37,493 bases of DNA from the IMG/VR virus record IMGVR_UViG_3300033571_005366, positions 1 through 37,493 of that record; one strand, 5' to 3'. The notes below the pieces were generated by a model. The model was not told the DNA's origin. It made no database searches and saw only the letters and a list, made by a program, of their open reading frames with translations. This document shows, piece by piece, positions 10,055-31,798 of the stretch; position 1 is the first letter of the stretch, and each line of letters starts with the position of its first letter. The DNA comes from a virus. The position numbers and the translations under genes were made by a program.

Positions 10055-10225
10055 TTAAGGTTTGAGTGCTTCGTAAATGTGTCTGCTGACTTTTTCCCAT
10101 TTGCTCTTAGGCTCAGACGCTTGACGCTGATGCACCTTGAGCTGTTCTTTGAGGTTAAGGATTTCCTGTTTTAACTGGCGATTCTCTGCTAACAGGTAAG
10201 CTGAGTTAAGGTCTTCGATTTGCAT
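10055..10225 (-). CDS. Small coiled-coil protein, 56 aa
   Basis: The ATG follows CAACACT with no Shine-Dalgarno. Residues 5-36 form heptad-like repeats of a coiled coil (LLAENRQLKQEILNLKEQLK), followed by a basic segment (KSKWEKVSRHIYEALK). It lies 15 bp downstream of the structured element at 10241-10338. It may dimerise and bind DNA; this is inferred. Confidence 0.65.
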   Translation of the reverse strand: MQIEDLNSAYLLAENRQLKQEILNLKEQLKVHQRQASEPKSKWEKVSRHIYEALKP

Positions 10226-10240
10226 AGTGTTGAATTGGTA

Positions 10241-10338
10241 GAGACTGCTGGGCTAGGTTGCTTCTTGGCTAGGCTTGCGGCAACTGGTGACACTATAGGG
10301 ACAACAACGAACCCTTGCCAATACCACCCAGCAGTCTC
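10241..10338. other. 98-bp structured element with 12-bp terminal inverted repeats
   Basis: GAGACTGCTGGG at 10241-10252 and CCCAGCAGTCTC at 10327-10338 are perfect inverted repeats. In the minus-strand RNA the helix can be extended inward by GGU/ACC and UUGGC/GCCAA, leaving an inner part that can form further small hairpins. It lies between the SSB-like gene and the coiled-coil gene. No T-run follows, so it is not a standard terminator. Candidates are a structured leader RNA, a small non-coding RNA, a replication or packaging site, or a tiny mobile element. Confidence 0.6.
10286..10300 (+). promoter_or_regulatory. SP6-type RNA polymerase promoter-like sequence
   Basis: GGTGACACTATAGGG on the plus strand contains the 13-base core GGTGACACTATAG of the SP6 RNA polymerase promoter, including the +1 G. 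The bases upstream of the core do not match. It points against the direction of the surrounding genes and lies inside the structured element. No phage RNA polymerase gene is in the window, so function is doubtful. Confidence 0.35.
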
Positions 10339-10346
10339 AAAAGGGT

Positions 10347-11763: not shown

Positions 11764-12630
11764 TTAGAGTTTGTTGAGGTAGTTAAGAATCCTGGCAAGT
11801 TCCTTTTCGTTGCAGTCTGTGACCAGTTCCTTGTTAAGTTTGGAAAGCAAGACTGGGACATGATCACCACCTTGAGGGTGGGCAACAATCTGGTCAATCA
11901 GGTCAGCTTTAGAGTCAAATGGACTGTCAGCAGAAACGGCAACAGGCTCAGGAGCAGCTTCGCCAGTAGAAAGCCATTGAGCGATGGATGATCCAGTTTC
12001 CTCTGTGATCTGGAAGATTTTGTCAGTAAACATTCCAGTTCGATCCTTTGATGCGCTTACCTGATGAGACATATCACAATCAAAAACAGTTGTGAATTCG
12101 TACTCAATACCATCTCGCATGATCGGGGCCATCCCAACCTTCTTAATCGTTGCCCTTCCGTTGCTGTCTTTATCAATGACATGATCCATCTTTGAGCGCA
12201 AACAGCAGATGACATGGATTTTAGATTGTAGAACAGCATCAAGGATTCCCTTGAATTTGTTTCCTGCGTCTGCCCAATTTGTGTAGGAATTTCCTCCACG
12301 GGCATCAAGCTTTGACTTGTACTCAAGAATTCCTTCCCAAATATGGGAGGCAGAATCAATCACAAGAACCTCATAAGAAGCGTCCTCCGCTGCTTTAATT
12401 GCAGAGATAAACTTGTCGTGAGTGAATGGGGGAGACAGGTCGAGCGTGTCAAAGTCAAACCTGTCTGAGTACAGGCTTGCTGACCCATTTTCTGTGTCAA
12501 TTACTGCGACCTTTCCTCCGTTTGCCAATCCCTTAGCTAGACGGAGACTGCTAAACGTTTTCCCAGAACCAGAGGCTCCAGTGACGGCCAATTTGATTTT
12601 GGCTTGTTTGCGTGTTGCTTTCTTAAACAT
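11764..12630 (-). CDS. Sak4-like RecA-fold ATPase
   Basis: This 288-residue AAA/RecA-type protein has Walker A TGASGSGKTFSS at about residues 17-28 and a Walker B-like strand YEVLVIDSASHIWE at about 85-98. It resembles phage Sak4-type annealing or recombination ATPases. The C-terminal 80 residues are a variable linker and a small helical domain (ADLIDQIVAHPQ). The leader is A/C-rich, ending AATACAACACGACT before the ATG. It is first in the cluster with exonuclease and SSB-like protein. Confidence 0.82.
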   Translation of the reverse strand: MFKKATRKQAKIKLAVTGASGSGKTFSSLRLAKGLANGGKVAVIDTENGSASLYSDRFDFDTLDLSPPFTHDKFISAIKAAEDASYEVLVIDSASHIWEGILEYKSKLDARGGNSYTNWADAGNKFKGILDAVLQSKIHVICCLRSKMDHVIDKDSNGRATIKKVGMAPIMRDGIEYEFTTVFDCDMSHQVSASKDRTGMFTDKIFQITEETGSSIAQWLSTGEAAPEPVAVSADSPFDSKADLIDQIVAHPQGGDHVPVLLSKLNKELVTDCNEKELARILNYLNKL

Positions 12631-30743: not shown

Positions 30744-30779
30744 AGGATGACGGCAGAGGGGTGTTACGCGATGCTAGTC

Positions 30780-31763
30780 TTACGAGGAGGCAGCAAACTT
30801 GCCAAGGCCAAGAGGATTCTTGACCACAAGGCCAGCCACAGCCTTAATCAGGCGGGCAGGGCCACCACCAGCATCAGGAAGTTCCGTCACTTCGGGCATA
30901 TTGGTATAGCGAAGTTCCAGCAAGTCCATATCCAGCACATAGCCACGGAAGGCGTTAGGCAGGAAGGTGGAAGGATGCAGGCGCAGGCTACCAAAGTCAC
31001 CGTTGAACACATCAACCGAGGCGGAATACACATCGGAAGAAGCGTCACGGCTCAAGGTACGGATGCTCTGGTACTGGTTGGTTCCAGAAGCGGTGGTCGT
31101 GTACAGCAGATTGCTGAAAGCGCGCTTGAGGCTTGTTCCAACCACGGTGTCATAGGTCTTGAACTGACCAGTCTGACCGTAGATGCTGGTCAACACGCCC
31201 TGGGCATCGGTTTCAGCGAAGGAACCAGTGGCAGTGGTGTTGATGCTGGCCGAAGGAGTGCGGAAAGCAGAGGGGACAGGGTTAAGAGCCTGTGCGCCGT
31301 TCTGAATCCAGCTACCAAGACCACGGGTAAGGTAAGGAACCGTACCGTTGTCAGCCTGCATATCGTTGTCGCTGGACACGGTAAGTTCCATGTCACGCTT
31401 CAACAATTTCAGGCTCTTGGCGATCATGCCTGCGAGTTCATCGCGCAGACCTGCAACGATGGAAACATCCACAGCCAAAGGAGACACGCGGATAGCGCGT
31501 TGGAACACTTGGATGTAGTTGTTGATCAGCGCACGACCGCTGTTGAGGTTTTCATAGCTGGAAACATCCACACCGTCAACGCTGCCAGTGCTGACAGGGG
31601 AAGGCATATTATCCGCCTGCCACTGGAGGAGGGTATTTCCTGGCTTTGGGGAGCCTTTGGGAACCATCGAGACGATGGGCGTATCCTTGGCATCAACCAA
31701 GGAGATGTAATCGGCAAGGTCTTCGCGCTTACCGACCTGAGTGCGTTCAAAAAGAGCGGCCAT
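30780..31763 (-). CDS. Major capsid protein, SU10-type
   Basis: This 327-residue protein builds the icosahedral shell. Its N-terminus (FERTQVGKREDLADYISLVD, AKDTPIVSMVPKGSPKPGN) and the following LLQWQADNM match SU10-type (DUF5309) major capsid proteins, which have the HK97 fold. It follows an acidic scaffold-like protein, the expected order. The leader is A/C-rich without Shine-Dalgarno (AAACTCAACTCAATAAAC), notable for a highly expressed gene. Confidence 0.88.
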   Translation of the reverse strand: MAALFERTQVGKREDLADYISLVDAKDTPIVSMVPKGSPKPGNTLLQWQADNMPSPVSTGSVDGVDVSSYENLNSGRALINNYIQVFQRAIRVSPLAVDVSIVAGLRDELAGMIAKSLKLLKRDMELTVSSDNDMQADNGTVPYLTRGLGSWIQNGAQALNPVPSAFRTPSASINTTATGSFAETDAQGVLTSIYGQTGQFKTYDTVVGTSLKRAFSNLLYTTTASGTNQYQSIRTLSRDASSDVYSASVDVFNGDFGSLRLHPSTFLPNAFRGYVLDMDLLELRYTNMPEVTELPDAGGGPARLIKAVAGLVVKNPLGLGKFAASS

Positions 31764-31798
31764 AATAGTTTATTGAGTTGAGTTTTTTGGGGTTTTGA

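Follow-up and report, generated by a model that had tools for sequence, protein, structure and literature searches.

A covarying element directly downstream of ssb in a phage clade, with a supported three-way-junction fold and a candidate cis-acting role

What is the nature of a perfect inverted repeat lodged between two early genes of a phage genome? The question is raised by a 37,493-nucleotide viral record (IMGVR_UViG_3300033571_005366, here called the window), in which an earlier note, made from the sequence alone, had drawn attention to perfect 12-bp arms enclosing 74 bp, with neither a T-run nor a gene inside. Arms, coordinates and spacing are all as that note described, as are the two absences. 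On the minus strand the element reads GAGACUGCUGGG ... 74 nt ... CCCAGCAGUCUC and occupies most of a 121-bp intergenic gap (10226-10346), the stop codon of ssb lying 8 nt ahead of it. Both ssb and the 56-aa ORF that follows the element, like the surrounding genes, are encoded on the minus strand, and genes for replication and recombination proteins (SSB, a RecE-like exonuclease, a Sak4-like protein and a DnaB-like helicase) are its neighbours. Coordinates are collected in Table 1.

Table 1. Positions in the window of the element, its predicted parts and the genes referred to in the text. Letters are given for the minus strand.
Feature	Position	Strand	Remarks
Whole element, 98 nt	10241..10338	-	read 5' to 3' on the minus strand; homologues in 7 other phage contigs and covariance model
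ssb, single-strand DNA-binding protein, 82 aa	10347..10595	-	upstream gene; phrog_18154, E 1.6e-14
56-aa ORF	10055..10225	-	downstream; ATG 15 nt past the element in the window
Sak4-like protein	11764..12630		
P1 5' arm GAGACUGCUGGG	10327..10338	-	perfectly complementary to 10241-10252 in 7/7 distinct sequences, letters changed
P1 3' arm CCCAGCAGUCUC	10241..10252	-	pairs with 10327-10338 in 7/7 distinct sequences
P2 5' strand UGGU (relatives AGGU, GAGU)	10323..10326	-	compensatory with 10285-10288
P2 3' strand ACCA (relatives ACCU, ACUC)	10285..10288	-	compensatory with 10323-10326
P2b hairpin 5' strand AGGG (relatives AAGG, UAGG, UGGG)	10312..10315	-	compensatory with 10297-10300
P2b hairpin 3' strand CCCU	10297..10300	-	compensatory with 10312-10315
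P3 5' strand GUUGC (relatives ACUGC, GCUGC)	10280..10284	-	compensatory with 10257-10261
P3 3' strand GCAAC (relatives GCAGU, GCAGC)	10257..10261	-	compensatory with 10280-10284
Conserved P3 loop segment UAGCCAAGAA	10262..10271	-	UAGCCA and final AA invariant; alignments
Linker CUAG, P3 to P1 3' arm (relatives CUAG, CCAG, CUUG, CCUAG)	10253..10256	-	hand alignment
Pseudoknot 5' strand GGC (relatives UCC), P2 internal loop	10317..10319	-	column-pair scan
Pseudoknot 3' strand GCC (relatives GGA), P3 loop	10272..10274	-	column-pair scan

The earlier note had considered so long a perfect stem unlikely by chance, which is an overstatement where the whole window is searched. Simulating the window as a first-order Markov sequence leads one to expect ~0.5 perfect 12-bp inverted repeats with arms no more than 100 bp apart per 37.5 kb, and stem length alone is therefore weak evidence. 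Exactly one such repeat is present in the window, placed precisely within the intergenic gap. Measured against dinucleotide shuffles, the 98-nt minus-strand element has a folding z of -3.1; a comparison of folding energies gives the minus strand no advantage over the plus.

More can be learned from relatives, which were found through a search with the Sak4-like protein that returned one close relative, whose copy of that protein is 98% identical, together with five contigs at ~80%, a further contig, L106, being added by a pattern search. Homologues of the element occur in the close relative and in six more distant phage contigs which, with the window, make eight contigs of a single phage clade; the comparative set derived from them comprises seven distinct sequences in two sub-lineages. 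In all eight contigs the element comes directly after ssb, 8-14 nt past the stop codon and 14-16 nt ahead of the next ATG. The latter spacing holds steady despite a difference in the first downstream ORF: the window lineage has the 56-aa ORF there, six relatives a p78-like gene. Lengths of the element range from 96 to 99 nt, implying that there is no reading frame to protect, and the interval contains no conserved one. With the exception of L106, each contig has a single copy. The two copies in L106 accompany contig ends (1-736 and 6226-6961) that form a perfect 736-bp inverted repeat, probably an assembly fold-back.

Outside the clade the element was not encountered: blastn gave no match in phage or plasmid records, and a covariance model no significant match in 97 other loci, among them ssb-bearing phages. 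Five pattern matches in a genome collection are attributable to chance, having no arms and no match to the model, while a palindrome in L016 has a different sequence and overlaps a terminator-like hairpin. The last patterns applied to viral contigs and to genome contigs allowed a gap of 2-7 where the distant relatives need 8, and so were able to detect the window lineage alone; the distant type of element had been recovered by an earlier pattern, run on viral contigs only.

The structure and conservation of the element are demonstrated by covariation. The covariance model was built from five distant relatives only, leaving out the window lineage, and it matches the window at 10242-10337 on the minus strand (46.6 bits, E 2e-8) as well as the close relative (E 4e-7). 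In the model alignment, 98.8% of 167 pair cells are paired and double changes are seen in 13 of 24 pairs. None of the shuffles comes up to the real alignment in percentage paired, in double-change counts or in covariation score, and when partners were slid by 1-3 columns only 1-2 double-changed pairs remained. The model alignment is fitted to the structure; a segment-by-segment hand alignment agrees with it, with Watson-Crick pairing in 166 of 169 pair cells. The arms vary yet stay perfectly complementary, for example GAGUUGCUUGG/CCAAGCAACUC, GAGUUGUCUGG/CCAGACAACUC and GAGUUGUUCGG/CCGAACAACUC. Compensatory changes of the arms, which the earlier note had proposed to seek in relatives, are thus present, their letters differing and their complementarity kept, and such covariation speaks against chance. 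An inverted repeat without function, in whose favour the simulated expectation may be cited, is scarcely tenable when 13 pairs have changed on both sides in separate contigs, compared to 1-2 in the slid controls.

The fold supported by these alignments is a predicted three-way junction (P1, P2/P2b and P3) with a loop-loop pseudoknot. The closing stem P1 has 11-12 bp, the P2 arm contains an internal loop followed by the hairpin P2b, and the P3 arm bears a large conserved loop, CGC...UAGCCA..AA. A helix scan of the hand alignment, in which three consecutive column pairs had to be paired in all seven sequences and to include two or more double changes, returned only P1, P3 and the pseudoknot, the last as GGC/GCC in the window lineage or UCC/GGA in the others. 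P1 and P3 are better secured than the pseudoknot, since the latter depends on one difference between two lineages. The inner helix that the earlier note had drawn (UUGGC/GCCAA, and GGU with ACC near the 3' arm) appears in the single-sequence minimum-energy fold but is not kept in the relatives, which support another inner structure. Pairing of a conserved upstream AACCCUU with a P2b strand, spotted by eye, proved inconsistent across relatives.

Judged by database comparison, the element belongs to no catalogued RNA family. No Rfam 15 family reached its gathering threshold in the window and six locus records, for the window and L010 nothing of note emerged near the element up to E 10, and ARAGORN found no tRNA or tmRNA. 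A retron msr-msd was rejected, six contigs of the group (three shorter fragments and three of ~37.45 kb) having no RVT_1 where controls were detected. So too was an intrinsic terminator: no terminator-like site lies at the element, whose 3' flank, TACCAATTC, is without a T-run. On the plus strand, positions 10286-10300 read GGTGACACTATAGGG, which resembles an SP6/T7 promoter core. The resemblance is a coincidence, the close relative having ACTATTGGGG, distant relatives nothing of the kind and the window no second copy; a phage RNA polymerase was not found, a weak result in that the search controls gave no match either.

The reading we favour, to which we assign a probability of about one half, is that of a cis-acting structured RNA within an early polycistronic mRNA, tuning ssb against the genes downstream. 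The element would be transcribed along with the operon, the minus strand being preferred because operon transcription must cross it, and would act post-transcriptionally on the balance between ssb and its downstream genes. An intercistronic or leader role in cis is favoured because the element follows the ssb stop closely and leaves only 14-16 nt to the next start codon; its identical placement in eight contigs, the compensatory changes and the constant ATG spacing support it, although that spacing could reflect genome compaction only. Thus, where the earlier note had offered a structured leader or a small RNA, the compensatory changes sustain a structured RNA and the position points to the intercistronic or leader form; its suggestion of a packaging site is without support. 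The element may govern how readily ribosomes reach the following start codon, perhaps by way of a phage or host protein bound to it. Leaders of the window phage have weak Shine-Dalgarno matches in 11 of 50 cases and most have none, and therefore initiation must use other cues. Alternatively or additionally, the element might be a stable 3' block shielding ssb mRNA from 3'-5' decay.

A trans-acting small RNA, whether transcribed independently from a dedicated promoter or released by cleavage of the operon mRNA, and serving, for instance, as a decoy for an RNA-binding or defence protein of the host, would suit the compact autonomous fold, conserved loops and sharp boundaries. We regard it as improbable, given that the element is not flanked by promoter- or terminator-like signals above chance and that its constant short distance from the next ATG points to a cis-acting role.

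One property sits less comfortably with a cis-acting RNA: not one of the 169 counted pair cells contains G-U. Over an estimated ~40 independent pair states this is mildly unexpected for RNA, and gives a slight hint of single-stranded DNA or of both strands. Primosome assembly sites and lagging-strand start sites are structured and strand-specific, and a structured ssDNA site of such a kind, for replication or recombination, would be in keeping with the neighbouring genes. Against it, neither iterons nor an AT-rich stretch were found nearby, GC skew does not clearly turn at 10.3 kb, and the missing G-U pairs rest on few independent changes; we consider a DNA site unlikely.

The predicted fold resembles the build of small ribozymes in its three-way junction, its contact between loops and its conserved unpaired segments. 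A self-cleaving ribozyme, or else a host RNase processing site, splitting ssb mRNA from the downstream mRNA is nonetheless highly unlikely, no ribozyme family in Rfam having matched either at its gathering threshold or when E values up to 10 were admitted.

Among known systems, the T4 gene 32 operator invites comparison with the cis-acting RNA that we favour. It consists of an ssb-linked pseudoknot of ~28 nt, on which gp32 acts, situated upstream of gene 32 itself and followed by a less structured leader of >40 nt to the start codon (PMC535899). As in the T4/RB69 operator, a phage pseudoknot is linked here to the gene of a ssDNA-binding protein, with a less structured stretch before a start codon, and the pseudoknot pairing, GGC/GCC versus UCC/GGA, is present in 7/7 sequences. 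The topology differs, however: the present element is a three-way junction of ~98 nt, with only 14-16 nt to the next ATG, and lies downstream of ssb (8-14 nt past its stop) rather than upstream of the ssb start. The T4 operator is best seen as a precedent for the parts and not as the same family, because it precedes its own gene and because Ssb binding is only putative here. Were the element indeed cis-acting, it would constitute a second, structurally different RNA control linked to ssb after that of T4 gene 32.

The put RNAs of HK022 are structured phage RNAs of ~70 nt which need no dedicated protein (PMC9378689), and, like the present element, are short and belong to an early phage operon, action in cis being predicted in our case. 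A nascent-RNA element acting on RNA polymerase, such as a put-type antiterminator, might be considered given the placement within a long early operon. It is very improbable, as put comprises two stem-loops downstream of early promoters (PMC9378689) whereas a three-way junction of 96-99 nt inside an operon is found here, and downstream terminators were not demonstrated in the window. The compensatory changes and the origin in uncultured sequences recall the structured RNA motifs described from metagenomes (Genome Biol 2010 R31, PMC2864571), from which the element is set apart by its lack of an Rfam 15 match and not by comparison motif by motif. Its interest is that a conserved structure with strong covariation, assignable to no catalogued family, recurs at one constant position next to a gene of phage replication.

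In other phage lineages with related ssb genes, sequences that look structured but differ from this element are frequent in the slot separating the ssb stop from the following gene, and no Rfam match was obtained for them in the 20 loci scanned. On a brief look, these make a role tied to ssb or to operon position more plausible and render the idea broadly testable. One could envisage a new class of RNA or ssDNA, folded as a pseudoknotted three-way junction to which phage SSB or some other replication protein would bind, as one of several unrelated elements that different phage lineages have placed after ssb and that couple SSB level to expression of the genes that follow; we put this forward as a tentative and rather unlikely possibility.

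Elsewhere in the window, a 344-aa open frame (30747-31781, plus strand) lies antisense to the gene for the major capsid protein (30780-31763, minus strand, SU10_MCP); it has no family match and is probably spurious.

Two kinds of sequence in the post-ssb slot of other phages may be described briefly. A family of 165-193 nt (L032, L034, L041, L058, L059, L064, L093 and L103) has the form CATCTTGTATATGTG ... GACAGTCGGAGAGACGAC, followed by a Shine-Dalgarno site, and gave no Rfam match among the loci scanned. The other, whose apical part varies greatly, has the form GGGG-AAAGC ... GCGAGUA-CCCC and occurs in L027, L036, L043, L046-L048, L051, L057, L066, L077, L088, L090, L094, L095, L099 and others. 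A simple pattern for it fits 29 of 74 loci, three of which (L078, L082 and L100) look unrelated. In L036 and L099 the apical part of this GGGG...GAGUACCCC element holds a tRNA-like stretch, GGTTCGATTCC, and ARAGORN calls no tRNA in the gap after ssb in either. Its outer stem shows compensatory variation (GGGG/CCCC, GAGG/CCUC, GGGC/GCCC), and its GAA/AGUA strands resemble a loop E motif.
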